From: Pseudomonadota bacterium
GTDB taxonomy: Bacteria > Pseudomonadota > Gammaproteobacteria > Burkholderiales > Burkholderiaceae_C
Assembly: GCA_020161145.1 (NCBI GenBank)
Contig: JAIUPQ010000002.1
Location: 186,001 to 250,000, forward strand
Direction: 5' to 3'
Length of the DNA: 64,000 nucleotides
Positions 23,049 through 43,464 of this stretch are shown one piece after another. The notes under the pieces were generated by a model, which was not told where the DNA came from, made no database searches, and saw only the letters and a program-made list of their open reading frames with translations. How positions within the stretch are numbered: position 1 is the stretch's first letter; each line of letters begins with the position of its first letter. The translations under genes were made by a program, and so were the position numbers.

Positions 23049-23831
23049 CTACTTCGGTGCACTCTGCACCCAGTGCAGCATCGCAGGCCCGATGGTCGCG
23101 GCAATCGTGTAGGCTCCTTCACCTGCCTTCTTGATCTTGTCTAGGTTGTCCGCAACCTTCGCGATCTTTTCGATGATCGTCCCGGCGCGCGCAAGAACGC
23201 TCCTGGCTGGTTCCGATGCCTTCGCATTCTCAGCTTCGATCCTGGGGCGCTCCACGATGTAGGCACCTGCCACCTGCTGCAAGGCGGTTTCAATAGGCTT
23301 CACTCCCTGCGCTTGGTAGACCTTGAGGGCTGTTCGAATCGTGTCAACCTGCCGTTGAACGAACCCGCGAAGATATGGGCTCATGTCGGTCTCGCTCAGG
23401 CTCTTTTCGAGTGAGTCCAGTTCGGCTCGAAGTTGTGCCATCTCATTGGCTGGCATGTCGTCTTCGTCTTCGTCACGAAGCACCCAGTTCGCCCACATGA
23501 ACGGAATGCGGTTTTCTGGCCTGGCGGCATCCTCCCGGTTGCCGCTCCATCCAGAATTCAAGATTGCGGTTGAGCTGATGTGGCGCAGCCGTGCGAAACC
23601 GGGCTGTAGCAGGCTATCGGAGACACCTCGGGCTTCGAGCTTTGCCTTCAGCAAGTCCAGTTCGGCGCGCAACGCCTGAAGGCACGTGACAACATCGTCT
23701 TCAATGGTCGGGTCTTCGGTCGGAAGATCGAACACTTGTGCCCATCGCTTCGTCATGGATACATCGTTGCCGCCCGAATTGATGTTTAGAAGACGTACGT
23801 AGATTTCGAGTAGCCGACCTGCGCTGTTCAT
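23049..23831 (-). CDS. Hypothetical protein with coiled-coil character
   Basis: The family is not recognised. From ATG 23831 (MNSAGRLLEIYVRLLNIN), preceded by a strong GGAGAGGAGG ribosome site, the protein has 260 residues. The middle part is charged and heptad-like (LQALRAELDLLKAKLEARG; AQLRAELDSLEKSLSE), and the C-terminus has a short hydrophobic stretch (AYTIAATIGPAMLHW). No signal peptide is seen. Base composition is visibly lower in G+C than the neighbours and it sits alone behind a tRNA cluster, so recent transfer is plausible. Confidence 0.7.
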   Translation of the reverse strand: MNSAGRLLEIYVRLLNINSGGNDVSMTKRWAQVFDLPTEDPTIEDDVVTCLQALRAELDLLKAKLEARGVSDSLLQPGFARLRHISSTAILNSGWSGNREDAARPENRIPFMWANWVLRDEDEDDMPANEMAQLRAELDSLEKSLSETDMSPYLRGFVQRQVDTIRTALKVYQAQGVKPIETALQQVAGAYIVERPRIEAENAKASEPARSVLARAGTIIEKIAKVADNLDKIKKAGEGAYTIAATIGPAMLHWVQSAPK

Positions 23832-23962
23832 CGAACCTCCTCTCCCTCGCTCAAAAAGTCGATTGTCTGATGGCTTCAAGAAAAAGCCCCGAGCGAAAGC
23901 CAGACGAGGAGTCCCCGCAGGGACTGCGCGCCACTCCCGAAAAGCTGTCATCCTGTCGGTGA

Positions 23963-23989
23963 TATAATAAATACGAATCATTCGTATTT
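23963..23989 (+). promoter_or_regulatory. Perfect -10 box followed by a Fur-like palindrome
   Basis: TATAAT (23963-23968) is followed at once by AATACGAAT-C-ATTCGTATT (23970-23988), a perfect 9-1-9 palindrome that extends by one further A/T pair (23969-23989). The core GAATCATTC matches Fur boxes of the AATGAGAAT-C-ATTCTCATT type. It overlaps the expected transcription start, so a bound repressor would block transcription of the receptor operon. Fur as the binder is inferred. Confidence 0.7.
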
Positions 23990-24007
23990 CGTTTTCTGGG
24001 AGGGAGC

Positions 24008-26119
24008 ATGTTTCGACGCTTGCAGGCGCCTGCCGACAGGACAGCAACCACCCGCAGTATGGGCGGGTTGGGGTGCGGTCACCCATGCGAAGGCGGGCGC
24101 GAGACGGTTAGTTGGGCCTGGCGCGCCAGCCATTTGGCATGCGCCTCGCTGTTGGCCGGCGTGGGTGGGGTGGCTGCCCAATCTGCGCCTGTACCCGCAC
24201 CAGCGGCCTCGGGCGCCTCGCCTGCAGGATCGGCTGCCGCCTCCGCGCCGTCTTCAGACTCAGCCGATGCGGCGGTGCCCGTCGTGGCGCTGCCGGCCAT
24301 CACCGTCACCGCCACCCGCCACGAGCAGGACGCACGCACCGCGCCGGCGTCGGTCACGGTGGTCAACCGGGCCGCCATCCAGAGCAAGGCCAGCGACGAC
24401 CTGCTCAGCGCGATTGAAGACACGCCCGGCCTGACACTGTCGCCGCGCCAGGTGGCGGGGCGGCGCACGTTCTCGCTGCGCGGCATGGACAGCCGCCACA
24501 CGCTGATGCTGATCGATGGCCGCCGCATCTCGGCCACCGACGACGTGGTGGGGCACTCCGACTACCAGTACGGCTGGGTGCCGCTGGCCAGTGTGGAGCG
24601 CATCGAGGTCATCCGGGGGCCGCTGTCGCCGCTGTATGGCTCCGAGGCGCTGGGCGGCGTGGTCAACGTCATCACGCGCTGGCCCACGGACAAGTGGGAA
24701 GGCTCGGTGCGGCTGTCGGGCCAGCTCGCGGCCGACCGGGCGTGGGGCGGCGATGGCGGCCGGCTGGGCGTGTATGCAGGCGGCCCGGTGGCCGAGGGGC
24801 TGTCGGTGCGCCTGAACGCCGAGGCCAGCCGCAGCGGCACCGTCGCCGACCGCGACGCACCGCAGTACAGCGAGATCGAGGGTCGCGATGGCCGCAGCGG
24901 TGGCATCTCGGCGCGCTACGCCATCAATGCCCGGCACAGCCTGGAGGCAGGCTGGCAGCAAGGGCAGGAGGAGCGCCTCTACAACGACGTCAATGCCCGC
25001 AGCGGCGTGGCCTACGAGAACCGCTACGACCTCGATCGCAGCCATGGCTACGTCCAGTGGCAGGGCGATTGGGACGACGTCACGGCCCAACTGCGCGCCT
25101 ACCGCAGCGCCATCAGCGTGGACAACCGCCGCACCAACGGCGTGGCGCCCACCCGCCCGCAAGACATGAAGGACGTGGTGGGTGATGGTTTTGTGCAATG
25201 GCGGCTGGGCGACCACCACCTCACGGTGGGCGGTGAGTGGCGGCGCGAAAGCCTGGTCAACGCCGGCCTGAAGGACGGCCGCGACAGCGCCGACCATCAG
25301 GCCGTGTTCGCGCAGGACGAGATCTCGCTGGGCACCCACCTGATCGCCACGCTGGGTGCGCGGCTGGATCGGCACGCCTACTTTGGCAGCGAGTTCAACC
25401 CGCGTGCCTACCTGGTCTGGGAGGCCACGCCAGAGTGGGTGGTCAAATGGGGCTTCGGCACCGCGTTCAAGGCGCCCACGCTCAAGCAGATCTCGCCCAA
25501 CTACGTCGGCGCCGAGGGGCCGCACACCTTTCTGGGCAATGCCGACGTGCAGCCCGAGTCCTCGCGCTCGTTCGAAGTGGGCGCCGACTGGCTGTCGGGG
25601 CCGTACTCGGTTCGCGGCACGCTGTTCCACACCCGCGTCAAAGACCTCATCACCACGCGCCTGCTCAGCCAGCAGGGCACGCGGCGCGTCTACCTCTACG
25701 ACAACGTCGACAGCGCCACCCTGCGCGGCGCCGAGCTGGGCTTTGCCTGGGAGGTGGCCAGCGGCTGGCGCTGGAACACCGACCTGACGCTGCTGCGCAC
25801 CCGCGACGGCAGCACCGGCCAGGAGCTGACCGACCGACCGCGTCAGGTGCTGCACTCGCAGCTGCAATGGCAGGGCGCGGGCGATTTCAGCGCGCGGCTG
25901 GGCGTGGACGTCACCGGCCGCCAGCGCACGTCCACGGACACCCAGCTGCCCACCTACACCGTGGTCAACGCCAGCCTGGGCTGGCAGATCACCCGCTGGC
26001 TGACCGGGCGAGTCGGGGTGGACAACCTGGGTGACGTGCGCCTGGCCGAGCAGTCCGCCGACTTCGGCTACGCCATTCGCGGGCGCACCTACTTTGTCAA
26101 CATGCAGGCGGACTTTTGA
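24008..26119 (+). CDS. TonB-dependent outer-membrane receptor (HmuR/BtuB-like)
   Basis: This 703-residue receptor starts at ATG 24008 behind GGGAGGGAG. A long N-terminal leader precedes the signal-like stretch HLACASLLAGVGGVAAQSA. Next come an Ala/Pro linker, a TonB-box-like ITVTATR, the plug domain (DDLLSAIEDTPGL, SRHTLMLIDGRRIS, VERIEVIRGPLSPLYGSEALGGVVNVIT) and the beta-barrel with a C-terminal aromatic end (YFVNMQADF). The plug resembles haem/cobalamin/siderophore receptors. The stop overlaps the chelatase start (TGATG). The start could lie slightly downstream; the leader is unusually long. Confidence 0.88.
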   Translation: MFRRLQAPADRTATTRSMGGLGCGHPCEGGRETVSWAWRASHLACASLLAGVGGVAAQSAPVPAPAASGASPAGSAAASAPSSDSADAAVPVVALPAITVTATRHEQDARTAPASVTVVNRAAIQSKASDDLLSAIEDTPGLTLSPRQVAGRRTFSLRGMDSRHTLMLIDGRRISATDDVVGHSDYQYGWVPLASVERIEVIRGPLSPLYGSEALGGVVNVITRWPTDKWEGSVRLSGQLAADRAWGGDGGRLGVYAGGPVAEGLSVRLNAEASRSGTVADRDAPQYSEIEGRDGRSGGISARYAINARHSLEAGWQQGQEERLYNDVNARSGVAYENRYDLDRSHGYVQWQGDWDDVTAQLRAYRSAISVDNRRTNGVAPTRPQDMKDVVGDGFVQWRLGDHHLTVGGEWRRESLVNAGLKDGRDSADHQAVFAQDEISLGTHLIATLGARLDRHAYFGSEFNPRAYLVWEATPEWVVKWGFGTAFKAPTLKQISPNYVGAEGPHTFLGNADVQPESSRSFEVGADWLSGPYSVRGTLFHTRVKDLITTRLLSQQGTRRVYLYDNVDSATLRGAELGFAWEVASGWRWNTDLTLLRTRDGSTGQELTDRPRQVLHSQLQWQGAGDFSARLGVDVTGRQRTSTDTQLPTYTVVNASLGWQITRWLTGRVGVDNLGDVRLAEQSADFGYAIRGRTYFVNMQADF

Positions 26120-29100
26120 TGGGACGGCTGGCACGCTTGACGATGCGGGTGGGTGGCGCCGTGCTGGCGGCGCTGCTGTGGGCCGGCGCAGCGCAGGCGG
26201 CCCTGACCGCCACGCCCGAGGCTGGCGCCACCGCTGCGGCGGCCACGCACCGCGTGCTGTTCATTGCCACCGGCAACGTGCCCAAGGGCAAGTTCCGCCA
26301 GTTGGCACCGCTCGCGGCGGCGCATGGCCTCGCGGTGGAGGTGCGCTACCTCAGCAGCATCCCGGCCCGAAGCGAGCCCTCGCTGTGGGACGGCTGGGAT
26401 GCGGTGTTCTTCGACTCCTACCTCTACGACCAGATTCAGGAGCATCTGGCGCAGGCCCTGCCCGGGCTCAAGGTGCCCCACGCCTGGCTGTATGACGCCA
26501 GGCCGGTCTGGGGTGGTGGTCTGTCCGAGGCGCAGGCGCGCCCGCTGGTCAGCTACTACGCCAACGGCGGGCAGCGCAATTTCGAGGGCTTCTTCAGCCT
26601 GCTGGCCGCCACGCTCGAAGGCCGCCCGGCGCCCGCCGACCTCAAGCCGCCGGTGGTCTTCCCCAAGACCGCCGTCTACCACCCGCAGGCGCCGCAACTG
26701 GTGTTCGCCAGCGCGGCGGACTTTCTGCGCTGGCGCGGTGTGACGCCAGCGGCGGCGGGGGCGCCGCGCCCGCCCGTGGTGGCCATTCCCATGCACCAGC
26801 AGTACATCGCGTCGATGCAGACCGGCTTCATCGACGACCTGGTGGCGCGCATCGAGCAGCGCGGCGCCGTGGCCATGCCCATCTACGGCCCCATGATGCC
26901 CGCCGGCGCCATCGCGCGCGTGCTGCAACCCCAGGCCGATGCGCCGCCGCTGGCCGACGCCCTCATCAACACGCAGATCATGCTCAACGCCGAAGGGCGG
27001 CGCGACGAGTTCGCGGCGCTGGGCCTGCCCGTCGTGCAGGCCATCGCCTACCGGCGCGGCGACGAGGCCGACTGGGCGGCCGACCCGCACGGCGTGGCGC
27101 TGATGGATGTGCCGTTCTACCTGGCCCAGCCCGAGTACGCCGGGGTGATCGACATCCAGATCGCCGCCGCCACCCGCAAAAGCGACGACGCCCTGGTCGC
27201 CATTCCCGACCAGGCGCAGGCCACGGTGGACAAGGTGCTGGCGCTCATCGATCTGCAACGCAAGCCGGCGGCCGACAAGCAGCTGGCGCTGATGTTCTGG
27301 AACTACCCGGCCGGCGAAAAGAACTTTTCGGCCGCCTTTCTGAACGTGCCCCAGAGTCTGCGCAGCACCCTGAGCGCGCTGCGCCGCGCCGGCTACGACG
27401 TGCCACCGCCTCCGCAAGAGGCCGAGTTGATTGCCACCGTGCAGCGCCTGCTGGCGCCCAGCTACCACGACGGCCTGCTGCCCGCGTTGCTCGCCGATGG
27501 CCTGGCCGCACTGCTGCCCGTGGCGCAATACCGCCAGTGGCTGGCCACGCTGCCCGAGGCCACGCGCACCGCGCTGATGGGCCGCTGGGGCGAGCCCGAG
27601 CGCTCGGCCAGCGTGATCCACCAGGGCGGCCAGGCCTATTTCGTCATTCCCCGGCTGCAACTGGGCAAGCTGGCGCTGCTGCCCCTGCCCGGGCGGGCCG
27701 ACAAAGGCGCCGATGGCGCTGCCGGCCGCGACCGCGCGCTCTACCACTCCATGAAACCCGATGCGCTGCCCCCGCACGCCTACCTGGCGGCCTACCTGTG
27801 GGTGCGCGAGAGCAGTGGCGAAGACCCGGGCGCCCGCCGCGACGCGCTGATCCACTTTGGCACCCACGGCACGCAGGAATGGCTGCCCGGCAAGGAGCGG
27901 GGCCTGTCGGTGTCCGACCCCGGCATGCTGGCCGTGGGCAGCCTGCCCGTGGTCTACCCCTACATCGTGGACAACGTGGGCGAGGCCACCCAGGCCAAGC
28001 GGCGCGGCCGCGCCGTCACCATCAGCCACCAGACGGCGCCGCTCAGGCCCGCTGGCCTGCACCGCACGCTGACCGAGCTGCACGACCTGCTGCACCAATG
28101 GCTGGCGCAGGACGAAGGGGCGGTCAAGGCCCGGTTCCAGGCCGACATCCTGGCGCGTGTCGCGCAGGCACGCATCGCCGCCGACATGGGCGGCTGGACG
28201 CCCGAGCGCGCCCGCACCGAGTTCGTGCCCTTCATCGACGCCTTGCACGACCACCTGCATGAGCTGGCGCAAACCGTGCAGCCGGTGGGCCTGCACACGC
28301 TGGGCGAATCGGCCGCCCCCGAGCACCGCGCCGCCACCGTGTTGATGATGCTGGGCCGCCCGTTCTGGGAGGCGGCGGCGCGCCAGGCCGGTGTGCCCGT
28401 CGTCGATCTGGACGAAGCCCTGGTGGCCGACCACGACCAACTTGCCGCCACCCCGGCCTACCGGTTGCTGGCGCGCCATGTGCTGGACGACACCGCGCCG
28501 CCCGCAGACCCTGGGTCGTTCACGCCCGAGTTGCAAGCCTTGCTCGCGCAGGCCCGCACCTGGTGGCGCAACCTGGACGCCAGCAGCGAAACGCAAGGCC
28601 TGCTGGCCGCGCTGGCGGGCCGCCACATCCCCACCGCCTATGGTGGCGACCCGGTCAAAAATCCCGACGCCCTGCCCACGGGCCGCAACCTGTACGGGTT
28701 CGACCCCTCGCGCATCCCCGCGCGCCAGGCCTGGGCGGCGGGCCAGCAGGCCGCCGAGCAGTTGATTGCCACGCACCGCCGCCAGACCGGCCAGACGCCC
28801 ACCAAGCTGACCGTCTCGCTGTGGTCGGTGGAAACCATGCGCCACCTGGGCCTGCTGGAGGCCCAGGCGCTGTGGCTGATGGGCGTGGAGCCGCTGTGGG
28901 ACGAAGGCGATCGCGTCACCGGCGTGCGGCTGGTGCCGCGCGCCACGCTGGGCCGCCCGCGCGTGGACGTGGTGCTGTCGGCCACGGGCCTCTATCGCGA
29001 CCACTTCCCCAACGCCATGCAGCACCTGGCCCGCGCCGCCCAGCTGGCCGCCCAGGCCGATGACGAGCCCGACAACCCCGTGGCTGCCCACACCCGGCGC

Positions 29101-30309
29101 CTGGCGCAGCGCCTGCGTGCCCAAGGCTGGGCCGAGGCCGATGCGCTGGACGCCGCGCAGACGCGCATCTTCTCCTCCGAATCCGGCCGCTACGGCACCG
29201 GCCTGGACGACGCCACGCTGGCCACCGACAGCTGGCAGGGCAAGGCCGAGGGCGACCGCAAGCTGGCCCAGATGTACCTGGCGCGGATGCAGTACGCCTA
29301 CGGCCCCGACGAAGCCCGCTGGGGCAGCCTGCCGCCGGGTGCCGATGCCGACGGCACCTCGCAAGGCAAGGCCTTGAATCTGTACGCCGAGCACCTGCGC
29401 GGCACGCAAGGCGCGGTGCTCTCGCGCAGCTCCAACGTCTACGGCATGCTGACCACCGACGACCCCTTCCAGTACCTGGGCGGCATCGCCCTGGCCGTGC
29501 GCCATCTGGACGGCAAGGCGCCCGAGCTGTACATCAGCAACCTGCGCGGGGCGGGCAGCGGGCGCGTCGAGGGCGCGGCGCAGTTCCTGGCCAAGGAGCT
29601 GGCCACGCGCCAGTTCCATCCCGGCTACATCCAGGGGCTGATGCAGGAAGGCTACGCCGGCACCTTGCAGGTGCTGGATGCCACCAACAACCTCTGGGGC
29701 TGGACGGCGGTGGCGCGCGAGATCGTCCGCGACGACCAGTGGCAGGAGATGGCCGACGTCTACGTGCGCGACAAACACCAGCTGGGCCTGGCCCAGTGGT
29801 TCGAGCAGCACAACCCCCACGCGCTGGCCCAGACCATCGAGCGCATGGTGGAGGCCGCACGCCAGGGCTATTGGCAGGCCGATGCCGCCACGCTGGCCGA
29901 GCTCAAAGACCGCTGGCGCGAGCTGGCGGCGCGCCACGCCGTCCAGAGCGACAACGCGCGCTTCACCGCCTTCGTGCAGGCTGCCGCACCGGGGTTCGGC
30001 CTGGGTCAGCCGTTGGCAACGGCCGCCGCCGCGCCAGATCAGCCTGGGCCGCCCGACGCCGCCACCGAGCAGCCCACGGCCGACGCCGCCCCGCCACCCG
30101 TGCGCGGCCTGCGCATGGCGCCGGTGGCCCCGCCGCCGCCACCACCGCCGCCGTCCGCCGTTGCGCGGTTCACGCAAGCCCTCTCGGCGCTGCTGCTGCT
30201 GACGCTGGTGGCGCTGGGAGCCGCTGTGCAGGCGCGCCGCGTCCGCACGCCGGTCGCCTTGCCGCGCACCGCTTTTTCATCCCCCATTGCCAACGGAGTG
30301 TCCGCATGA
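26119..30309 (+). CDS. CobN-like chelatase with signal peptide and C-terminal anchor (HmuS-like)
   Basis: This 1396-residue member of the CobN/ChlH superfamily carries HFGTHGTQEWLPGKERGLS (from about residue 578) and YPYIVDNVGEATQAKRRGRA, family signatures around the metal/porphyrin site. Unlike cytoplasmic CobN it begins with a clear signal peptide (MGRLARLTMRVGGAVLAALL...AQA, cleavage near 27). It ends with a poly-Pro linker and a membrane helix (LSALLLLTLVALGAAVQ, last 50 residues) plus a basic tail. That topology places the catalytic body in the periplasm. Neighbours are a receptor and an ExbB/ExbD-like pair; no CobS/CobT ATPase genes are nearby. HmuS of Bacteroidetes hmu loci is the closest functional parallel I know. 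Substrate (haem, cobalamin or nickel tetrapyrrole) is not determinable. Confidence 0.88.
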   Translation: MGRLARLTMRVGGAVLAALLWAGAAQAALTATPEAGATAAAATHRVLFIATGNVPKGKFRQLAPLAAAHGLAVEVRYLSSIPARSEPSLWDGWDAVFFDSYLYDQIQEHLAQALPGLKVPHAWLYDARPVWGGGLSEAQARPLVSYYANGGQRNFEGFFSLLAATLEGRPAPADLKPPVVFPKTAVYHPQAPQLVFASAADFLRWRGVTPAAAGAPRPPVVAIPMHQQYIASMQTGFIDDLVARIEQRGAVAMPIYGPMMPAGAIARVLQPQADAPPLADALINTQIMLNAEGRRDEFAALGLPVVQAIAYRRGDEADWAADPHGVALMDVPFYLAQPEYAGVIDIQIAAATRKSDDALVAIPDQAQATVDKVLALIDLQRKPAADKQLALMFWNYPAGEKNFSAAFLNVPQSLRSTLSALRRAGYDVPPPPQEAELIATVQRLLAPSYHDGLLPALLADGLAALLPVAQYRQWLATLPEATRTALMGRWGEPERSASVIHQGGQAYFVIPRLQLGKLALLPLPGRADKGADGAAGRDRALYHSMKPDALPPHAYLAAYLWVRESSGEDPGARRDALIHFGTHGTQEWLPGKERGLSVSDPGMLAVGSLPVVYPYIVDNVGEATQAKRRGRAVTISHQTAPLRPAGLHRTLTELHDLLHQWLAQDEGAVKARFQADILARVAQARIAADMGGWTPERARTEFVPFIDALHDHLHELAQTVQPVGLHTLGESAAPEHRAATVLMMLGRPFWEAAARQAGVPVVDLDEALVADHDQLAATPAYRLLARHVLDDTAPPADPGSFTPELQALLAQARTWWRNLDASSETQGLLAALAGRHIPTAYGGDPVKNPDALPTGRNLYGFDPSRIPARQAWAAGQQAAEQLIATHRRQTGQTPTKLTVSLWSVETMRHLGLLEAQALWLMGVEPLWDEGDRVTGVRLVPRATLGRPRVDVVLSATGLYRDHFPNAMQHLARAAQLAAQADDEPDNPVAAHTRRLAQRLRAQGWAEADALDAAQTRIFSSESGRYGTGLDDATLATDSWQGKAEGDRKLAQMYLARMQYAYGPDEARWGSLPPGADADGTSQGKALNLYAEHLRGTQGAVLSRSSNVYGMLTTDDPFQYLGGIALAVRHLDGKAPELYISNLRGAGSGRVEGAAQFLAKELATRQFHPGYIQGLMQEGYAGTLQVLDATNNLWGWTAVAREIVRDDQWQEMADVYVRDKHQLGLAQWFEQHNPHALAQTIERMVEAARQGYWQADAATLAELKDRWRELAARHAVQSDNARFTAFVQAAAPGFGLGQPLATAAAAPDQPGPPDAATEQPTADAAPPPVRGLRMAPVAPPPPPPPPSAVARFTQALSALLLLTLVALGAAVQARRVRTPVALPRTAFSSPIANGVSA

Positions 30310-30836
30310 TCAATCCCCTGGAAGGCGCGATGTACAGCATCAGCCAGTTGTTCCTCTACCCCGTGCTGCTGGCCGTGGCGCTGGTGTTTGCCTATGCGTT
30401 CTATGCGCTGGGCGCATTCGGCTGGCAGGCGGTGCAGCGCGCCCGGGCCCGCGCGGACGGCAGCCTGGCCGGCCACGAGCTGCTGGCGGCCCATGCGCAA
30501 GACCCCACGCTCACGACCGATGAGCTGGAGGCGCTGGCCCTCGAGCGCCTGGAGATGGCCCGCATCGCCACCCGCGTGGCGCCCATGCTGGGCCTGGTGG
30601 CCACCATGATCCCCATGGGCCCCGCGCTGCAGGCGCTGGCCGAGGGCCAGCTGGCCGAGATGTCGCGCGGGCTGATGGTGGCGTTCTCGGCCGTCATCCT
30701 GGCGCTGATTGCCGCCGCCGTCACCTATGCCGTGGTGCACGTGCGGCGGCGCTGGTATGCGCAAGACCTGCTGGCCATCGCGCACCAGCGGCTGGACCGC
30801 ACCCCTCATGCCACCCTGCAAGAGGTGCCGGCATGA
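30306..30836 (+). CDS. MotA/TolQ/ExbB-like proton-channel protein (HmuU-like)
   Basis: This 176-residue protein starts at ATG 30306, overlapping the chelatase stop (ATGA). It has three membrane helices: LFLYPVLLAVALVFAYAFYA near the N-terminus, then the ExbB core RVAPMLGLVATMIPMG and VAFSAVILALIAAAVTYAVV. The AP-x-GL-x-AT pattern and the small-residue-rich third helix match TolQ/ExbB. ExbB proteins form the stator that uses the proton gradient. It is coupled to the DUF2149 gene by another ATGA overlap. Confidence 0.88.
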   Translation: MINPLEGAMYSISQLFLYPVLLAVALVFAYAFYALGAFGWQAVQRARARADGSLAGHELLAAHAQDPTLTTDELEALALERLEMARIATRVAPMLGLVATMIPMGPALQALAEGQLAEMSRGLMVAFSAVILALIAAAVTYAVVHVRRRWYAQDLLAIAHQRLDRTPHATLQEVPA

Positions 30837-31168
30837 GAACCCGCCTGCTGGACGACGTGGAGGACGACGACCCCATCCTCTCGGTCGTCAACCTCATCGA
30901 CGTGTTCCTGGTCGTCATCGCCGCGCTGCTGCTGGCCGTGGCCAGCAGCCCGGCCAACCCGTTCTCGGCCCACACCATGACCATCATCAAGAACCCGGGC
31001 CAGCCCGATATGGAGATGATCGTCAAAGAGGGCGAAAAGCTCGAGCGCTACCAGGCCAGTGGCGCCATCGGCGAAGGCCACGGCACCAAGGCCGGCGTGG
31101 CCTACCGGATGAAGGACGGCTCCATGGTCTACGTGCCCGAGGCGGGCACTGCCGACGCGGCGCGCTGA
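30833..31168 (+). CDS. DUF2149 protein, ExbD-like (HmuV-like)
   Basis: This 111-residue protein has an acidic N-terminus ([11 protein letters not shown]), one membrane helix ([18 protein letters not shown]) and a small periplasmic domain ([13 protein letters not shown] ... [16 protein letters not shown]). The helix start NLIDVFLV closely resembles FIDVMLV of ExbD, including the single intramembrane Asp used for proton flow. The family is DUF2149, found in hmu-type loci. With the preceding ExbB-like protein it would form a dedicated energiser for this operon. Confidence 0.82.
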
Positions 31169-31250
31169 TCCAGCGCAAGACAGGCCCCGCGCAAACACGG
31201 ACAATCGGGCTCTTCACCATCCTGGATGGACAACAGGCGAGGAGCACGAC

Positions 31251-31718
31251 ATGCAAGGCGACCCCAAGGTTCTCGACACCCTCAACCAGCTGCTGGCAGG
31301 CGAGCTGGCCGCGCGTGACCAGTACTTCATCCACGCGGCGATGTACGAGGACTGGGGCTTTGGCAAGCTGCACACGCGCTTCCACCACGAGATGGAAGAA
31401 GAAACCGGCCACGCCCGCGCCATCATCAACCGCATCCTGATGCTGGGCGGCACGCCGCGCATGACGCCCGACGCGCTCTCCATCGGCCAGGACGTGGCCG
31501 ACATGCTGAAAAAAGACCTGGCCGTGGAGCTGCACGTGCGCGACGCCCTGAAAAGCGCCATCGCGCTGTGCGAGCAGCAACAGGACTACGTCAGCCGCGA
31601 GATGCTGGTGCTGCAACTGGCCGACACCGAAGAAGACCACGCTCACTGGATCGAGCAGCAACTGGGCCTGATCGACAAGGTGGGGCTGCCCAACTACCTG
31701 CAAAGCCAGATGAGCTGA
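31251..31718 (+). CDS. bfr: Bacterioferritin
   Basis: This 155-residue four-helix iron-storage protein forms a 24-mer and usually binds haem between dimers. The ferroxidase ligands are seen as E18 ([11 protein letters not shown]), E51/H54 (MEEETGHAR), E94 and E127/H130 (DTEEDHAHW); M52 at the haem-ligand position reads as Glu here ([10 protein letters not shown] has Met one turn earlier), so haem ligation needs an alignment. It lies 82 bases after the HmuV-like gene in the same direction, fitting an iron/haem locus. Confidence 0.92.
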
Positions 31719-33837: not shown

Positions 33838-34890
33838 TCAGCAGATGCGCGGCAGCTGCTCCCCGCTGAGCCAGTCGACGATGCGCCGCCCGCCCAGTCG
33901 GGTGCGCATCTGCACAAAAGGCTGGCCCTCGGCCGTCACCGTGCCGATGCGGGCGGCGCGCGCGCCCAGCGGGTGGGCGCGCAGCGCGGCCAGCACGGCG
34001 TCGGCGGCGGCGGCGGTGCAGATGACCACCAGCTTGCCCTCGTTGGCCACATAGAGCGGATCCAGCCCCAGCAGCTCGCAGGCCGCCTCCACCGGCGGGT
34101 TGACCGCGATGGCGGCCTCGTCCAGCGTCATGCCCACGGCCGACTGGCTGGCGATCTCGTTGAGCGTGGTGGCCAGGCCGCCGCGCGTGGGGTCGCGCAG
34201 CACGTGCACGGCGCCGGGCGCAGCGGCCAGCACCGCGGCGGTCAGCGTGTGCAGCGCCGCGCTGTCGGAGCGCACGTCGGCCGCAAAACCCAATGACTCG
34301 CGCTGCGACAGCACGGCCACGCCGTGGTCGCCGATGGTGCCCGAGATCAGCACCGCATCGCCCGGCTGCGCCAGCGCGCCGCCCACCTCCACCCCATCGG
34401 CCAGCACGCCCAGGCCGGTGGTGCTGATGAAGACGCCGTCGCCCTTGCCGCGCTCCACCACCTTGGTGTCGCCGGTGACGACGGCCACGCCCGCAGCCCG
34501 CGCCGCCGCGCCCATGGACTGGGCGATGCGCTGCAACTCGGCCAGCGCAAAACCCTCTTCGATGATGAAGCTGGCCGTCAGGTACAGCGGCTGGGCGCCC
34601 ATCACGGCCACGTCGTTGATGGTGCCGTGCACGGCCAGGCTGCCCACGTCGCCGCCGGGAAAGAACAGCGGCGAGACCACGTGGGCATCGGTGGCCAGCA
34701 CCAGCCGGCCCTGGGCCGGCGGCAGCCGCGCGCCGTCGTCGCCCTGGCGCAGCGCCGGGTTGTCGAAGGCGGGCAGGAACAGCTCGCGGATCAGCTGCGC
34801 GCTGGCGCGGCCGCCAGCGCCGTGGTTGAGGTCGATGCGGCCGCGCTGGATGTCCAGCGGGCGGGTGTAGGCGCGGGGCGAGGTGCTCAT
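33838..34890 (-). CDS. hypE: Hydrogenase maturation protein HypE
   Basis: HypE dehydrates a C-terminal thiocarboxamide to thiocyanate, the source of the CN ligands of the NiFe site. It is 350 residues of the PurM/ThiL fold with the N-terminal LNHGAGGRASAQLI and the ATP-binding VTGDTKVVERGKGDG. The essential C-terminal PRIC ends with Cys, so the protein is complete. Its start overlaps hypD by four bases; it is the last hyp gene of the cluster. Confidence 0.97.
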   Translation of the reverse strand: MSTSPRAYTRPLDIQRGRIDLNHGAGGRASAQLIRELFLPAFDNPALRQGDDGARLPPAQGRLVLATDAHVVSPLFFPGGDVGSLAVHGTINDVAVMGAQPLYLTASFIIEEGFALAELQRIAQSMGAAARAAGVAVVTGDTKVVERGKGDGVFISTTGLGVLADGVEVGGALAQPGDAVLISGTIGDHGVAVLSQRESLGFAADVRSDSAALHTLTAAVLAAAPGAVHVLRDPTRGGLATTLNEIASQSAVGMTLDEAAIAVNPPVEAACELLGLDPLYVANEGKLVVICTAAAADAVLAALRAHPLGARAARIGTVTAEGQPFVQMRTRLGGRRIVDWLSGEQLPRIC

Positions 34891-36017
34891 GCGGTGGTGA
34901 TGGGAATGTCGCGGAAACGGCCGTAGGTGTAGTGCGCGGCGCAGGCACCTTCACTGGACACCATGCACGAGCCCACGGGGTTTTCGGGTGTGCAGACGGT
35001 GCCGAAGATTTTGCAATCGGCCGGCCGTTTGACGCCGCGCAGGATGGCGCCGCATTCGCAGGCCTTGTTGTCGGGCACGCTCTCGTAAGTCAGGCCAAAG
35101 CGCTGCTCGGCGTCAAAGGCGGCGTAGCGCGGCCGGATGCGCAGCGCGCTGTCGGCCACCGTGCCCAGGCCGCGCCACTCAAAGGTCTCGCGGCGCTCGA
35201 AGACCTGGTCCATCAGCGCGATGGCGCGCGCGTTGCCGTTGCGGTTGACGGCGCGGGCGAACTCGTTTTCCACCTCGGCCCGGCCCTCGTTGACCTGGCG
35301 CAGCAGCATCCAGATGGCCTGCATCACGTCCAGCGGCTCGAAGCCGGCAATGACCACCGGCTTGCGGTAGCGCGCGGCAAACGGCTCGTAGGCGCCGTAG
35401 CCGATGACGATGCTGACGTGGGCCGGGCCGACGAAGCCGTCCAGCGGCACGGCCTCGCTGGCGGGCGTGTCTAGGATGTGGGTCATCGCGGCCGGCGTCA
35501 GCACGTGGCAGCACAGCACGCTGAAGTTGGGCAGGTTCTCGGTGGCGGCCTGCGCCAGCGCCACGGCGGTGGGCGGCGTGGTGGTCTCGAAGCCGATGGC
35601 AAAGAACACCACCTGGCGCTCGGGGTTGGCGCGCGCCAGCGCCAGCGCGTCGGCCACCGAATAGACCATGCGCACGTCGGCGCCGCGTGCCTTGGCGCGC
35701 AGCAGCGACAGACCCTCCGAGGCCGGTACGCGCAGCGTGTCGGCGTAGGTGCACAGCAGCACGTCGTGCTGCAGCGCCAGGTTGATGGCCATGTCGATGC
35801 GGCCGATGGGCAGCACGCAGACCGGGCAGCCGGGGCCGTGGATCATGCGCACGTTGGCCGGCAGCAGCTCCAGCACGCCGTAGCGCGACAGCGCATGCGT
35901 GTGGCCGCCGCAAAACTCCATGAAGCCGTAGTCGCGTCCAGGCAAGGCCTCGGCAGCGATGCGCGCGGCAATCTGCTGCGCCAGCGCGCCGTCGCGGAAC
36001 TCGTCGATGTATTTCAT
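34887..36017 (-). CDS. hypD: Hydrogenase maturation protein HypD
   Basis: HypD is the [4Fe-4S] scaffold on which Fe(CN)2CO is assembled with HypC. It is 376 residues with FCGGHTHALSRYG, GPGCPVCVLP and the C-terminal cysteine set (CECGAILRGVKRPADCKIFG, GSCMVSSEGACAAHY). It overlaps hypC and hypE by four bases at each end. Confidence 0.97.
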   Translation of the reverse strand: MKYIDEFRDGALAQQIAARIAAEALPGRDYGFMEFCGGHTHALSRYGVLELLPANVRMIHGPGCPVCVLPIGRIDMAINLALQHDVLLCTYADTLRVPASEGLSLLRAKARGADVRMVYSVADALALARANPERQVVFFAIGFETTTPPTAVALAQAATENLPNFSVLCCHVLTPAAMTHILDTPASEAVPLDGFVGPAHVSIVIGYGAYEPFAARYRKPVVIAGFEPLDVMQAIWMLLRQVNEGRAEVENEFARAVNRNGNARAIALMDQVFERRETFEWRGLGTVADSALRIRPRYAAFDAEQRFGLTYESVPDNKACECGAILRGVKRPADCKIFGTVCTPENPVGSCMVSSEGACAAHYTYGRFRDIPITTA

Positions 36018-36241
36018 GGCGCCTCCTGCGGCGTCAGGCCGGCAAACAGCGCCAGCGTGCGGGCGGCCTCGGCCGGGTCCAGCTTGCCGATGGCGTGGCC
36101 GACGTGGACGATGACCCAGTCACCCTCCTGCACGTCGTCCAGCAGCGCCAGGCTGATGCTTTTGTGCACGCCGCCCACATCGACCAGCGCTTGCGCGCCG
36201 TCCTGCAGGGCAACGACACGGGTGGGAATGGCCAGACACAT
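36014..36241 (-). CDS. hypC: Hydrogenase maturation chaperone HypC
   Basis: This 75-residue protein begins MCLAIPTRVV; the Cys after Met binds iron and the HypD and large-subunit partners. A GGAGGAT ribosome site precedes the ATG. It is one of two HypC-family proteins in this cluster, the other being the longer HupF. Confidence 0.96.
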   Translation of the reverse strand: MCLAIPTRVVALQDGAQALVDVGGVHKSISLALLDDVQEGDWVIVHVGHAIGKLDPAEAARTLALFAGLTPQEAP

Positions 36242-36259
36242 GGGGTGGATCCTCCTTCG

Positions 36260-37360
36260 TCAATGGCGGGTGTGGGCGCCCACCCAGGCCTGGCCCAGGG
36301 CCAGCCCCGCGTCGCCGCAGCCACTGGCCGCCGGAAAGCGCACCTGCAGGCCGGCGGCGTCGAGCCGGCGCTCGACCTCACTGCGCAGGATGCGGTTGTA
36401 GAAACAGCCGCCCGCCAGGCAGACGGTGCCCACCTGCTGCTGCGCGGCGGCCTGAGCGGCCCAGGTGGCCAGCGCGGCGGCCAGCGTGGCGTGAAAGCGC
36501 GCGGCGGCGGCACCCACGTCGTCCACGTCGAACAGCGTGGCCAGCAGCGGCGCCAGCGCCAAGGTGGCGGGCGAGCTGGCCATCTGCTGCGCCAGCCGCG
36601 CATCGGCCATGTGCGCGGCCGGCAGGCCTTGCGCCGCCAGCCACTCGGTGGCGGCGCGCTCCAGCGCGATGGCGGCCTGGGCCTCGTCGTCCTGCTTGAG
36701 CATCAGCCCCAGCGCGGCGGCGGCGGCGTCGAACCAGCGTCCGGCGCTGGTGGTGCGCGGTGCGCGCAGGTCTTTGTGCAGCAGCTCGGCCACGCCCTCG
36801 GCCTGCACGCGGCCGACGGCCTGGGCGTAGCGCGGCGCGATCTCGTGCGCGCGGTCCAACTGCTGCAGCACGGCGGCGGCCATGCGCCAGGGCTCGCGCG
36901 CGGCGCGGTCGCCGCCCACCAGCGGCAGCGGTGCAAAGTGGCCCAGCCGCTGCCATTGCTGGTGGTGCACCCACAGCAGCTCGCCACCCCAGGGCAGGCC
37001 GTCGGTGCCCAGGCCCACGCCGTCCAGCGCCAGGCCCACCACGGGCTCGTCCAGCCCATGCTCGGCCACCACGGCGGCCACGTGGGCGTGGTGGTGCTGC
37101 ACGCCAATGGCCGGCACGCCATGCGTCTGCGCCAGGTGCTCGGCCAGGTGGGTGCTGGCGAAGTCGGGGTGCAGGTCGTGGGCAAACGCGGCCACCGGCC
37201 CCTGGGCCAGCCATTCGGCCACGCTGGCGGCCAGCGCGTCGCAGGCCTCGGGCGTGCCCAGGTCGCCATGCAGCGGCGACCAGCTTGCGGCCTGCCCCTG
37301 CAGCCGGCAGGCGCGGTTCTTGAGCCAGGCGCCGGTGGCGATGATGGCCGGTGCGGTCAT
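36260..37360 (-). CDS. hypF: Half-length HypF (Kae1-like carbamoyltransferase domain only)
   Basis: HypF normally (about 750 residues) has acylphosphatase, zinc-finger, YrdC-like and Kae1-like domains. This 366-residue protein begins [13 protein letters not shown] and holds only the Kae1-like half: [14 protein letters not shown] with its metal-binding His, [17 protein letters not shown], and [11 protein letters not shown] near the end. No coding potential for the missing half is seen between hypB and hypF, which overlap by four bases. Short HypF proteins are known in Ralstonia eutropha (HypF1). Carbamoyl-adenylate formation presumably needs another protein. Confidence 0.9.
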
Positions 37361-38337
37361 GGCTGCTGCGCGCGCGCCAGCGCGGCCTCCAGCTCGCGCA
37401 CGCGCTGCTGCAGCGCGGCGAGGGTGGGCGGCGTGCCGTCGGCTTCATGCCCATGCGCATGGTCATGATCGTGGCCGTGGCCGTGGCCGTGGCCGTGGGC
37501 TGCCGCCAAGGCCGGCGTGTGGTGGCTGAGCCAATGCAGCCAGTCGTCCATGCCGGCCCCGGTGGTGGCCGAGACCTCGATGATCTCGATCTGCGGGTTG
37601 ACGCGCCGGGCCATCTCGCTGCAGCGCGCCACGTCGAACGTCAGGTGCGGCAGCAAGTCGGTCTTGTTCAGCAGCATCAGCTGCGCCGCGCCGAACAGGT
37701 CGGGGTATTTCAGCGGCTTGTCCTCGCCCTCGGTCACCGAGAGGATGGCCACCTTGGCCGCTTCGCCCAGATCCCACAGCGCGGGGCAGACCAGGTTGCC
37801 CACGTTCTCGATGAACAGGATGCCGCCGTCGTGGCCGTGGCCGTGCACGTGGTCGTGGTCATGGGCGTGGTGCGCATGGCCATGCGCATGGAAGTGCCCA
37901 TGCAATTGCGCAAACGCCTGCTCCACCATGGGCGCGTCCAGGTGGCAGCCCTTGCCGGTGTTGACCTGCACGGCCGGCGCGCCGGTGGCGCGGATGCGGT
38001 CGGCATCGTGGCTGGTCTGCTGGTCGCCCTCGATGACGGCCACCGGCAGCTCGGGGTGGCGCGCGCGCAAGGCCTCGATGGTGGCCACCAGCAGCGTGGT
38101 CTTGCCCGAGCCGGGGCTGGAGACCAGGTTGAACGCCGCGATGCCGTGGCCCTCGAACCGGGCGCGGTTGCGCACGGCCACGGCGTCATTGGCGCCCAGC
38201 ACGCTTTGCTCGATCTGGATGGCCCGCGCCTGGCTCATGCCGGGCACTGAGACGCGCGCAGCGCCCAGGCCGAAATGGAGGTCTTGCTTGGTACTCGTCG
38301 TCTCAGCGGGCGTGCCGCAACCACAGACCACACACAT
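37357..38337 (-). CDS. hypB: Nickel-incorporation GTPase HypB with relocated His-rich tracts
   Basis: HypB delivers nickel to the large-subunit precursor. It is 326 residues from ATG 38337 (MCVVCGCG), the high-affinity N-terminal metal motif. The GTPase core has the P-loop [20 protein letters not shown] and LNKTDLLPH. The His-rich nickel store usually follows the N-terminal motif; here there is none. Instead [20 protein letters not shown] sits inside the GTPase domain (near residue 155-175), and a second tract [18 protein letters not shown] is near the C-terminus (about 283-300). Confidence 0.95.
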
Positions 38338-38350
38338 CGTCGTTTCTCCT

Positions 38351-38695
38351 TCAGTCTTCAACCTGCATGTCGACCACGCGCAGCTCGGTGCCCTCGTGGG
38401 GCATCAGCTGATGGCCGCCGCAGCGTTCGCAGGGATCGCCGCGCGTGTGCAGCGGCACGGTTTGGGCGCAGGCCATGCACCAGGCCTGGCCCACGGGGGT
38501 GTCGATGATGATGGCCGCGCCCTCCAGCAGGGTACCGGGGGCGATGGTCTCCAGCGCGAACATCAGCGCCCGCACGTCGACGCCGGCCAGCGAGCCGGCC
38601 TCCAGCCGCAGCACGCGCACGCGGGTGAAGCGCTCGCGCTGCGCCGCGTCCTCGACGATGTTCAGGATGCCACCGGCCAGGCTGACCTCATGCAT
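38351..38695 (-). CDS. hypA: Hydrogenase nickel chaperone HypA
   Basis: HypA works with HypB in nickel insertion. It is 114 residues from ATG 38695 ([14 protein letters not shown]): His2 binds nickel, and the zinc site is CMAC...CERCGG. The start overlaps the end of hupK by eight bases. The ORF in the longer upstream frame is shadow sequence. Confidence 0.96.
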
Positions 38696-39668
38696 GGCCG
38701 GCCTCGATGACGTAGGGCACACAGGGGTCGAACGCGGCCATGGTGGCGGCCACGGCGGCGGGGTGGCTGCCCACGGCGTGCAGCATGCGCGCCACCGCGC
38801 CTTCGGGATGGAAGTTCCACTCGGTTGGGGCCACCACCCGGTAGCGGCGCAGCCCGCCGTCGCCATCGGCCTCGGCCACGTGCAGCAGCAGGCCGCGCGC
38901 CATCTCCACCCAGGCCACGGCGCGCCCGCTACCCAGCGCCAGCGCGCCATGCACCAACTGGGCCTGGCCGCTGCCCAGGCGCAGCCACTCGGCAATGCGG
39001 CAGCCCAGCAGCAGCGCGGTGTCCAGTGGCCCGTGCAGGCCGGCCCGGCTCCAACAGCCGGTGTGGGCGCAGCGGCCTTGCCAGGTGGGGCGCAGCACCA
39101 GGGCGGGCGTTTGCAGCACCTGCGCGGCAAACGTGGCCAGGGCATCGGCGTCGTGGTGCAGGTTCAGCGTGGGCACGTCGGCCGGCAGCGGCTGGCGCAG
39201 GGCCAGCGCGGTGGCCATCAGCGGGGCCAGCCAGCCTCGGCGGCGCTGCGCCCAGCGTGCCAGCCAGGCGCCGGGGCGCTGTTCCCATTGCGCCAGCCAT
39301 TCGGCGGCGGGCAGGCCCAGCGCGGCCTCGGGCGTCAGCGCGGCACCGGCCATTGGCCGCGCGCCCAGATGCAGCGGCCAGTCCAGTTGCAGCCGGCGGG
39401 CATGTTCGGTGCGGGTTTCGCCGTCCAGGTCCACTGGGGCGTCCGGCACGGCGATGCGGGCCGCGCGCAGCGCCAGCGTGGCGGCCAGCGTGTGGGCGTG
39501 GCCGCAGAGGTTGAAGACCAGCGCCAGCGTGCGCGGCAACTCGGCCGCGGGCACGGCAGCCACCAGTGCGGGCAGCAGGTCGGTGCGCGGGTTGAAGAGG
39601 CCGCGCCCCAGCTCGGCGCCCGCCACCACGCGCAGCGGGGCGCCCAGCGCGGCCAGCGGTGCGTTCAT
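38688..39668 (-). CDS. hupK: Hydrogenase assembly protein HupK/HoxV
   Basis: HupK/HoxV is a large-subunit-like scaffold for the NiFe cofactor in aerobic hydrogenase producers. It is 326 residues from ATG 39668 (MNAPLAALGAPLRVV). It retains large-subunit-like traces such as VVAPTEWNFHPEGA and [14 protein letters not shown] at the C-terminus, where a Cys remains, but lacks the paired CxxC motifs. Position between hupJ and hypA is as in Rhizobium and Ralstonia. Confidence 0.9.
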   Translation of the reverse strand: MNAPLAALGAPLRVVAGAELGRGLFNPRTDLLPALVAAVPAAELPRTLALVFNLCGHAHTLAATLALRAARIAVPDAPVDLDGETRTEHARRLQLDWPLHLGARPMAGAALTPEAALGLPAAEWLAQWEQRPGAWLARWAQRRRGWLAPLMATALALRQPLPADVPTLNLHHDADALATFAAQVLQTPALVLRPTWQGRCAHTGCWSRAGLHGPLDTALLLGCRIAEWLRLGSGQAQLVHGALALGSGRAVAWVEMARGLLLHVAEADGDGGLRRYRVVAPTEWNFHPEGAVARMLHAVGSHPAAVAATMAAFDPCVPYVIEAGHA

Positions 39669-40153
39669 GGAGCGGCCCGCCCCAGCAGCAAGCTGCGCCG
39701 GGTTGGCGATGCCGGCGGCGTCGGGTGGGCTGGCTCGGCCACCGCACGCGCCAGCCGCAGCGCGTCTTCGGCCACGGCCTGGGCCTGGGACTGGCTGGCG
39801 AAGTCGCCCATGGGCGAGAACAGGGCGCAGCTCTCCCAGGCGCCGAAGCCCGGCTCGTGGTGGCCCAGAAAGTCGAAGACTGTGCTGCCGCACGCACGCG
39901 CGCCGCGATGGCCCACGCGCAGCACCGCCAGGTCGCCCTGCAGCGGCAGCCGCACCAGGCTCATGAACCACGGGGTCAGCAGCACGCCGTCGGCCCAGCC
40001 CGGCTCGGCGGCCTGCCAGCCCACGGGCTGCACCGCCAGTTGCGGGTTGAGCAGCGGCACACCCGCCATGCGGGTGCGCGCGATGTGCGTGAACAGCGCC
40101 GCGAGCGCCGCGACGCGCTCGGCGATGCGGGTGGCGGTGTCAGGCGGGTGCAT
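39665..40153 (-). CDS. hupJ: Hydrogenase assembly chaperone HupJ/HoxT (HybE family)
   Basis: This 162-residue protein starts at ATG 40153 (MHPPDTATRIAERVAALA). Family features are PLLNPQLAVQPVGWQ, VLLTPWFMSLVRLP and GAWESCALFSPMGDFASQ. HybE-like chaperones bind the Tat-exported small-subunit precursor. The gene overlaps hupI at its start and hupK at its end. Confidence 0.9.
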   Translation of the reverse strand: MHPPDTATRIAERVAALAALFTHIARTRMAGVPLLNPQLAVQPVGWQAAEPGWADGVLLTPWFMSLVRLPLQGDLAVLRVGHRGARACGSTVFDFLGHHEPGFGAWESCALFSPMGDFASQSQAQAVAEDALRLARAVAEPAHPTPPASPTRRSLLLGRAAP

Positions 40154-40364
40154 CGGGCAGCAGCAAGAACTGTTCGGGCGCGCAGTCGCAGTTGGGGCAG
40201 CGCCAGTGCGCGGGCAGGTCGGCAAACGGCGTGCCGGGCGGAATCTGCCAGACCGCATCCCCCTGCGCCGGGTCGTAGACCCACCAGCAAATCTTGCACT
40301 CCAGCCGCGAGGTGGGCAACAGTGTGGTCTTGTCGCCCAGGTAGGTGCCTTCGAAGGTGTCCAT
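40140..40364 (-). CDS. hupI: Rubredoxin HupI/HoxR
   Basis: This 74-residue rubredoxin carries two CxxC iron-binding motifs, CKICWWVYDPAQGD and CPNCDCAPEQF. ATG 40364 (MDTFEGTYLGDK) lies one base after the hupH stop. In Ralstonia the equivalent HoxR is needed for MBH assembly under oxygen, which fits the oxygen-tolerant small subunit here. The CDC extension next to the second motif gives an extra Cys. Confidence 0.95.
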   Translation of the reverse strand: MDTFEGTYLGDKTTLLPTSRLECKICWWVYDPAQGDAVWQIPPGTPFADLPAHWRCPNCDCAPEQFLLLPDAPA

Positions 40365-40365
40365 G

Positions 40366-41205
40366 TCAGGTGGACTCGTGGAGCATGGCCAGGATGTCGG
40401 CCAGCCGCTCGTGGCTGTCGCGCAGGTCTTCGGGGGCAGCCAGGGCCACGTCGGGCAGGGCGGTGACCTCGACGCTGTTGAGGATGACCGCGTCGGCCGA
40501 GTTGTAGTAGACGACGCGCCAGACATGGGCCAGCCGCGTGCTGGTGATGCGGCAGTTGCCGTAGCCGCGCGAGAGCACGGTGAGGTCGCCGGTGCCCAGG
40601 TGGTGGTCGAGGAAGGCGATGTCGCCCATGGACATGGGCAGCAGCGAGAGGTTGATGACCTCGGCCGGCGCGCCAGGCTGCCAGGCGGCGGCCTTCTGGG
40701 CCACCTCGGCGATCAGCGCGGGGGCGTTGACCACGCCGTCGGGCAGCGGGCCGTCCCAGGCGGGCGGCGCGGGCCACAGGCCTTGCAGGGCGGCTTCGGC
40801 CAGGCAGGCCGGTGCGGGGCCCACCTCCACGTGGTCGGTCACCACCTGGCCGGCGCGGGTGTGGATCACGCGCCAGACGCCGGCAAACACGGCCTCCTGC
40901 ACGCACACCTCGCTGCCGTCGGCCTGCTGGATGCGGGCGCCGACCTCGCCCTCGCCCAGCAGCGTGTGCAGCGCCGTGCGCTCGGCCGGCTCGAGCGTGG
41001 CCAGATCGATGGGCGCAGGGTCTGTGGCCACCAATGCCGCCGCCAGCCGCGCCAGCACGGCCAGCACGGCAGGCGGTGTGGTGGCGGGCAGCGGCGGCGT
41101 GGCGTAGACCGTCATGTCGGCCGGCATCTTCAGGTAGTGCAAGGTCTCTTCTTCGGCCATGGCGCCGGGACCGATGAGGCGCACGGGCAGTGGAAAGGGT
41201 TTCAT
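40366..41205 (-). CDS. hupH: Hydrogenase expression/formation protein HupH/HoxQ
   Basis: This 279-residue protein starts at ATG 41205 (MKPFPLPVRLIGPGAMAEEE), overlapping the hupG stop. The C-terminal region ILNSVEVTALPDVALAAPEDL is typical of the HyaF/HupH family. The HoxO/HoxQ pair is thought to shield the small-subunit precursor during assembly. Confidence 0.93.
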   Translation of the reverse strand: MKPFPLPVRLIGPGAMAEEETLHYLKMPADMTVYATPPLPATTPPAVLAVLARLAAALVATDPAPIDLATLEPAERTALHTLLGEGEVGARIQQADGSEVCVQEAVFAGVWRVIHTRAGQVVTDHVEVGPAPACLAEAALQGLWPAPPAWDGPLPDGVVNAPALIAEVAQKAAAWQPGAPAEVINLSLLPMSMGDIAFLDHHLGTGDLTVLSRGYGNCRITSTRLAHVWRVVYYNSADAVILNSVEVTALPDVALAAPEDLRDSHERLADILAMLHEST

Positions 41206-41959: not shown

Positions 41960-41962
41960 GGC

Positions 41963-42565: not shown

Positions 42566-42662
42566 GTCAGTTACTCCGGGGTGCCAGGTGGCACCCGCGT
42601 CGCGCCAGCCAGTCGCCACCCAGCGACCGCCGCGGATCCGGCTTGGCCGGTCCGCCAGCGGT

Positions 42663-42695: not shown

Positions 42696-42711
42696 TAGGG
42701 GGTGGTTCATG

Positions 42712-43443: not shown

Positions 43444-43464
43444 GACGGCCTCCAGGCTAGGGGT

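Follow-up and report, generated by a model that had tools for sequence, protein, structure and literature searches.

In Proteobacteria the iron of haem is usually freed by cytoplasmic haem oxygenases. In gut Bacteroidota it is freed by HmuS, encoded in hmuYRSTUV; the B. thetaiotaomicron enzyme turns haem into protoporphyrin IX in vitro, its H538A variant does not, and His538 has been shown to be essential (PMC12583661). The members of the PF02514 family with a described activity (HmuS, CobN and ChlH) handle tetrapyrroles (PMC12583661, PMC13227078, PMC7689651). BtuS1 and BtuS2 of Bacteroides fragilis represent a third type of CobN relative, predicted to be exported and tied to haem-iron use (PMC6460266, which credits the CobN-like BtuS family to Rodionov 2003). 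In Pseudomonas aeruginosa, PA1922-PA1925 encodes, by the annotation of the papers describing it, a TonB receptor, a CobN-like protein, an ExbB-type protein (called ExbD there) and a DUF2149 protein, and this set is Zur-controlled and tied to zinc (PMC4542158, PMC8531726, PMC9431628, PMC11761036, PMC8456098). Here we analyse a four-gene operon of the same order in a 64,000-nucleotide stretch, referred to hereafter as the window, from a Pseudomonadota bacterium of the Burkholderiaceae_C (assembly GCA_020161145.1, contig JAIUPQ010000002.1, positions 186,001 to 250,000). The order of this bacterium includes Azospira oryzae, so that it counts as a betaproteobacterium in common usage. With about even confidence, we read it as a Fur-controlled iron acquisition operon that works like the Bacteroidota Hmu system, its iron chelate most likely being haem, demetallated in the periplasm. 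It is best labelled a variant, under Fur control, of the known BtuS/HmuS kind.

The four genes (Table 1) overlap as the original prediction for this DNA had stated, by TGATG at the receptor/CobN-like junction (26117-26121) and by ATGA at each of the two following junctions. The CobN-like protein is 1396 residues long, counted from its ATG. The likeness to hmuR-S-U-V that had been claimed was also confirmed: receptor, exported and anchored CobN-like protein, ExbB-like HmuU and DUF2149 HmuV stand in the same order as in the Hmu system (HmuS, PDB 9d26), with which the operon shares predicted iron control and the catalytic His538 and Glu577. A DUF2149 family at the HmuV position in Bacteroidota has been described (PMC10434189), and the protein at that position in Bacteroides finegoldii belongs to DUF2149. 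The operon differs from the Hmu system in the absence of HmuY and HmuT, in its CirA-like receptor, and in its enzyme, which falls in a separate clade and lacks His1209, Glu1212, His254 and the methionine-rich insert. Likeness to BtuS was set by definition rather than by sequences: PMC6460266 describes a CobN relative apart from CobN and ChlH with an export signal, and by tree and hydropathy the operon protein lies outside canonical CobN and carries such a signal. With the BtuS family, HmuS (PMC12583661) and PA1922-PA1925 (PMC4542158) already known, the description of the system as largely unexplored is trimmed here.

Hydropathy supports the view that the CobN-like protein is exported and membrane-anchored. 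Its N-terminal hydrophobic stretch, VGGAVLAALLWAGA, is followed by AQA-A, and its C-terminal stretch, ALSALLLLTLVALGAAV, is a hydrophobic helix followed by arginines, which bears out the signal peptide and C-terminal anchor claimed earlier. The N-terminal threshold was passed by 74 of 91 members of the motif-defined clade and by one of eight canonical CobN controls, so that N-terminal hydropathy, the sole basis of the export call, splits the groups imperfectly. The C-terminal threshold was passed by 60 of the 91, and none of the controls had a C-terminal tail; these end 22-42 residues past the catalytic domain, as compared with 147 in the operon protein.

Both Pfam and NCBIfam label the protein CobN, and PRK05989.2-2 scores above its cut-off. 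That it is the canonical cytoplasmic enzyme that serves aerobic B12 synthesis is nevertheless barely credible. In a tree of 66 proteins (quick search, Shimodaira-Hasegawa-like approximate likelihood ratio supports), the eight canonical CobN formed a 100% branch and the other 57, HmuS included, stood opposite (99%), although the root, placed on one ChlH, is not secure, given the long ChlH branch and many rows of deviating composition. The operon protein fell within a 22-row clade (99%) sharing the motif LTTDDPFQYLGG, and thus outside canonical CobN, a placement on which the original prediction had staked its case. Canonical CobN, which works with CobS/CobT and needs them, reads GKHG in six of eight rows, together with DS[DN]DYYQFQGG-like motifs; GTHG appears in one archaeal row. 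HmuS has HFGTHG and LSLDHVYEFMGG, and the operon protein's clade H[FYL]GTHG and LTTDDPFQYLGG, GTHG being common to the operon protein, HmuS and the one ChlH. Further types were a proteobacterial set with DHPFEYLGG-like motifs and a GRHS/DNND set. In the 3.5 Mb genome no protein other than this one matches PF02514. A profile search of that genome found no match to CobT_C (PF11775), in agreement with the claim that no CobS/CobT lies nearby; CobS was not searched for. Tree, GTHG instead of GKHG, export signals and missing CobT_C all rule against canonical CobN. The predicted structure of 1200 residues of the protein (predicted local distance difference test score, pLDDT, 84.8) resembles CobN, HmuS and ChlH alike.

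The linkage with ExbB and DUF2149, whose absence from other genomes would have counted against the original prediction, was conserved. In a scan of named genomes, in which the best 80 of 591 relatives were kept, DUF2149 was found in the stretch around 68 of the 80 and an ExbB-like gene around 70. These relatives include Acidovorax, Comamonas, Simplicispira, Rhodoferax, Azospira, Azonexus, Zoogloea, Pseudoduganella, Massilia, Castellaniella, Rubrivivax and Magnetospirillum. Eleven of the 12 loci lacking DUF2149 have 0-1.7 kb left after the enzyme; the exception is locus L079, with 7.9 kb. Around any CobN homologue (135 loci; within 8 kb, same strand), DUF2149 was present in 113 and the ExbB-like gene in 115; by the same rule, both were missing at the canonical CobN and ChlH loci fetched. 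Own genome included, DUF2149 occurred in 22 of 300 genomes of the order (20 above cut-off) and 17 of 398 genomes of the phylum. Twenty stretches were fetched from the 22 other DUF2149 places in the order: 12 read CobN-ExbB-DUF2149 (two cut by contig ends), four ExbB-DUF2149-CobN, two CobN-ExbB-DUF2149 in a distant clade, and in two (L041 and L045) the stretch around DUF2149 contained no homologue of CobN.

Two side observations concern these loci. A phosphonate/NMT1-like binding protein, an ATP-binding cassette permease, an ATPase and NnrS accompany the block in 12-13 of 99 loci each (L057, L059, L060, L062, L063, L064, L080, L133 and others). L079 and L088 are two copies of the operon protein's clade in one Rhodocyclaceae metagenome genome (BROCD002); L079 was the one of the two scanned for riboswitches, and L088 has a weak Fur score (11.7) and a second, different CobN-like open reading frame nearby.

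Iron control of the operon is predicted from the Fur-type box in front of it. This site lies just outside the feature as delimited (24008-31718), a delimitation that is itself correct. TATAAT (23963-23968), read by eye, directly precedes the palindrome; the rule-based search found no sigma-70 pair at this site. The exact 21-bp palindrome has no near copies at up to three mismatches. With the relaxed motif AATNNGAATNATTCNNATT (up to two mismatches), 11 palindromic sites were found in the genome, that of the operon included, and none with the reversed control pattern. Of the other ten, we judge eight to be beside iron-related genes: PepSY_TM, imelysin, feoA-feoB, tonB, two TonB receptors, hemP with a receptor and a bacterioferritin, and a solute-binding protein judged by eye to be Fbp-like. 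The remaining two adjoin an SPFH protein and a pair of small unassigned proteins; including that pair would make nine. The ten sites, without the operon's own, were used to build a matrix, which reached a score of 16 in 32 of 73 testable loci, operon included, eight of the 81 loci (operon plus 80) being excluded for too little upstream sequence. It did so in 0 of 1064 windows inside the enzyme genes, and column-permuted matrices in 0.2%. Fur-like boxes were also seen at L183:4899 and L184:4914, directly before ExbB-DUF2149-CobN, in a clade belonging to another family of the class.

This box bears on the choice of metal. Zinc uptake, as proposed for PA1922-PA1925, would account for the same gene order under Zur there (PMC4542158, PMC8531726), and L039 has a palindrome like the Zur consensus. 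The operon's site, however, matches the Fur-type boxes of its genome and fell below the printing limit with Zur matrices built from that consensus, and we consider a zinc function highly improbable. Handling of cobalt or corrinoids, by periplasmic metallation or salvage of cobamides, is quite improbable. It would fit the CobN-like domain V motif DDxFQY of the operon protein and the same-strand cobalamin riboswitches upstream of ten sister-clade loci (L026, L042, L043, L044, L170, L180, L186, L189, L190 and L192), two of them (G171 and G1038) from the operon genome's own family. However, no such riboswitch lies near the operon, the two found in the genome being far away (in a search that did not cover L060), and 20 of the 21 named clade loci on which Rfam was run (of 80) had none; the other is L079. 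Because of the Fur box, the lack of a nearby riboswitch and the missing CobT_C, we favour iron, with haem its most likely source, rather than cobalt or nickel. The original prediction had left iron and cobalt/nickel side by side; the first of these is the better supported.

The ExbB-like subunit and DUF2149 have features of a proton-driven stator. By profile, the former matches TolQ, ExbB and MotA structures (an ExbB at probability 99.6%), and its Thr100, in PxLGLxxT, is Thr in 122 of 122 sequences. ExbD, TolR and MotB have one membrane helix with an Asp followed by a beta-rich part. DUF2149 has this layout, with one predicted transmembrane helix carrying Asp23 (Asp in 116 of 117 sequences, Glu in one) and then a beta-rich part; its model has a helix at 14-37 followed by strands, at pLDDT 67 and a predicted template modelling score of 0.30. 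Sequence kinship between DUF2149 and ExbD was not significant (profile probability 1.5%), and the operon, unlike TonB/ExbB/ExbD, contains no TonB. The conserved channel residues suggest that the metal step may be coupled to the proton-motive force.

Haem is pointed to by the receptors of the clade. Sixty-four enzyme-adjacent receptors were compared, the operon's included; 17 of the 80 loci, in which no adjacent receptor was found, were excluded. At E<=1e-96, which by our own conversion approximates the curated cut-offs, the haemoglobin/haem receptor models TIGR01786 and TIGR01785 matched 40 and 39 of the 64, and CirA one. By nearest seed, 41 of 64 were haem-type and 23 CirA-type, the operon's being among the latter. 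BLAST located ChaN (PF04187) in 19 and HemP (PF10636) in 18 of 99 loci, the families being confirmed by Pfam on examples. One or the other was in the stretch at 24 of 41 haem-type loci as compared with none of the 23 CirA-type loci (Fisher 1e-6, for loci that are not independent); some HemP copies were kilobases distant or on the opposite strand. A Fur score of at least 16 was obtained for 22 of 39 haem-type and 10 of 22 CirA-type loci. On the enzyme tree (FastTree, with some long branches joined), receptor class switched at least five times while the chelatase stayed uniform, a pattern that suggests a common substrate. Most simply, the enzyme would do the same chemistry throughout and the receptors would be exchanged, with the iron coming from haem or a similar tetrapyrrole. 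The class of a receptor does not reliably tell its ligand, however: L079 is haem-type by seed yet riboswitch-controlled.

The active site gives a divided answer. The residues of HmuS mapped were those named in PMC12583661, as far as the alignment reached (Met79 lies beyond it). His583 of the operon protein (HFGTHG, fitting the HFG(T/A)HG pattern of HmuS) is the equivalent of His538 and is present in 80 of 80 named relatives (L126 being read from its second piece). Glu577, Ser1014, Ser1199 and Asp1208 are also kept, while Ser1067 is replaced by Thr, Gln1198 by Ser and Trp1202 by Tyr. The essential histidine is thus kept and the HmuS-specific partner absent, so that the enzyme, judged by these residues, could work like HmuS without being HmuS. 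The earlier interpretation accordingly holds in outline for iron and for location; its proton drive is a hypothesis, and its identification with HmuS was too close.

Several observations weigh against a haem-demetallating, Fur-controlled operon. At the HmuS His1209 motif the operon protein has Asp1115 (LTTDDPFQYLGG) and at Glu1212 a Gln, and the LSLDHxxEFMGG motif of HmuS is replaced by LTTDDPFQYLGG. Asp and Gln occupy these positions in 80 of 80 named relatives; they do so in 91 of 91 rows of an earlier set, but those rows were chosen by that motif, and the 80 loci, picked by similarity, are preferred. The site-1 haem ligand His254 corresponds to Ile287 in one alignment and to a gap in the family alignment. 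The methionine-rich insert is missing, the segment having 107 residues with 2 Met as compared with a median of 265 with 11 Met in three HmuS. The operon's receptor is closest to the colicin I receptor structure (273 bits, as compared with 51-71 for PhuR/ShuA-type haem receptors), and loci with receptors of its type never had ChaN or HemP in the stretch. No Fur score of 16 was reached in 41 of the 73 testable loci. L079, inside the operon protein's clade, has a cobalamin riboswitch immediately in front of its receptor and neither ExbB nor DUF2149 in the 7.9 kb after the enzyme, yet its receptor counts as haem-type. The operon's genome already has a haem system of hemP, receptor and HemS, to which the operon would be a second. 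Finally, B. fragilis mutated in both btuS1 and btuS2 continued to form protoporphyrin (PMC6460266).

Two alternatives draw on these observations. The same Fur-controlled module might remove iron from a chelate that is no tetrapyrrole, for instance a fragment of a catecholate siderophore taken up by the CirA-like receptor; another ferric chelate is a possible ligand in the CirA-type branch. The Cir-like receptor, the 23 CirA-type loci and the active site without the second HmuS histidine would all fit. The best NCBIfam matches of the receptor, PRK13513 and CirA, are however both far below their cut-offs, family members of described activity handle tetrapyrroles, and receptor class switched repeatedly over one type of chelatase. 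We regard this explanation as unlikely. Alternatively, the CobN-like protein may be a binding or regulatory subunit that passes on haem or iron, powered by ExbB/DUF2149, and no demetallase itself. The dechelatase activity retained by the B. fragilis mutant and the missing second axial histidine would agree with this; protoporphyrin formation by HmuS, but not by H538A, and the retention of the equivalent histidine make it rather improbable.

Table 1. Features of the operon and its flanks, with positions in the window.
Feature	Position	Strand	Evidence
Predicted Fur box, 21-bp perfect palindrome AAATACGAATCATTCGTATTT	23969-23989	.	palindrome search
TonB-dependent outer-membrane receptor, CirA-like	24008-26119	+	Pfam TonB_dep_Rec 162.7 bits
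CobN/HmuS-like chelatase, predicted exported, C-terminal membrane anchor	26119-30309	+	Pfam CobN-Mg_chel 979.6 bits; hydropathy; tree; residue mapping
ExbB/TolQ/MotA-type proton-channel subunit	30306-30836	+	Pfam MotA_ExbB 28.5 bits
DUF2149 (HmuV) protein	30833-31168	+	Pfam DUF2149 98.8 bits
Bacterioferritin, neighbour gene	31251-31718	+	Pfam Ferritin 122.6 bits; TIGR00754 162.3 bits

The bacterioferritin gene follows DUF2149 after an 82-bp gap and is an unproven candidate for membership of the operon. Against the idea that the operon feeds iron to it, a bacterioferritin is a same-strand neighbour in only two of 99 loci, here and in Rubrivivax (L122). The genome has at least one other bacterioferritin, beside hemP (L055:1569-2042). 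Bacterioferritin haem is usually held by a methionine. That residue is missing from the copy next to the operon, because it reads EETGH where the hemP-side copy reads EMKH. The genome also encodes FeoA/FeoB behind a Fur-type box and has no match to the PF01126 haem oxygenase, other haem oxygenase types not having been searched for. A second, periplasmic route for iron from haem beside the HemS system is plausible.

On the other side of the operon, a divergent minus-strand open reading frame (23049-24086; likeliest start, by eye, an inner Met near 23831) has no Pfam or NCBIfam match and may share the Fur-type box. Beyond bacterioferritin, a [NiFe] hydrogenase cluster (33838-47080; HypD, HypE-like, HypF, HypB-like, HypA, HupH, large and small subunits) is transcribed leftwards, on the strand opposite to the operon. 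A phage-type integrase (48666-49592) and an IS110-family transposase (54163-55407) lie further on and suggest that 48663-55407 is a mobile stretch. Supply of nickel to the hydrogenase could be imagined, as about 2.1 kb separate bacterioferritin from the end of the hyp/hup cluster. In addition, on a Runella slithyformis plasmid (L172), receptor, ExbB, DUF2149 and CobN-like genes are flanked by hypF on one side and hypC-hypD-hypE on the other and accompanied by a membrane protein weakly resembling NicO; this may be a nickel version. However, hyp genes accompany only these two among 137 stretches searched, and with the Fur-type box and the opposite strand of the hydrogenase cluster we consider a nickel function very improbable.

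The genes with their overlaps, the Fur-type box, the export signals and the conserved residues are read from sequence, as are the haem receptors and ChaN/HemP at the level of the clade; from there we infer substrate, direction of demetallation, FeoAB route and proton-motive coupling. In the mechanism that we propose for Fur-controlled haem-iron acquisition, iron limitation would lift Fur from the operon, and an iron chelate would be imported by the receptor, haem or a related tetrapyrrole with iron being the most likely one. The CobN-like protein, exported and held at the inner membrane, would bind this chelate in the cleft between the His583 and Asp1115 faces and free Fe(II) in the periplasm. 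Fe(II) would then enter via FeoAB, with possible storage in bacterioferritin. ExbB-like subunit and DUF2149 would form a small proton-driven stator, energizing the receptor or moving the chelatase.

More tentatively, and with considerable doubt, the receptor/CobN-like/ExbB-like/DUF2149 set may be a general proton-driven platform for periplasmic demetallation, in which receptors can be exchanged and an active-site position can switch between His and Asp. Bacteria would re-tune it to the metal: to iron under Fur, as in this clade, to zinc under Zur, to cobalt under a cobalamin riboswitch or to nickel in a hydrogenase cluster, and in the operon's branch it might strip iron from a non-haem chelate. 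If the operon does free haem iron, a Fur-controlled periplasmic relative of HmuS in many free-living betaproteobacteria would represent an oxygen-independent route to haem iron outside the gut. It would make sense of the many proteins at present annotated as 'cobaltochelatase CobN', and what the ExbB/DUF2149 motor and the second residue of the active site do would become directly testable in tractable bacteria.

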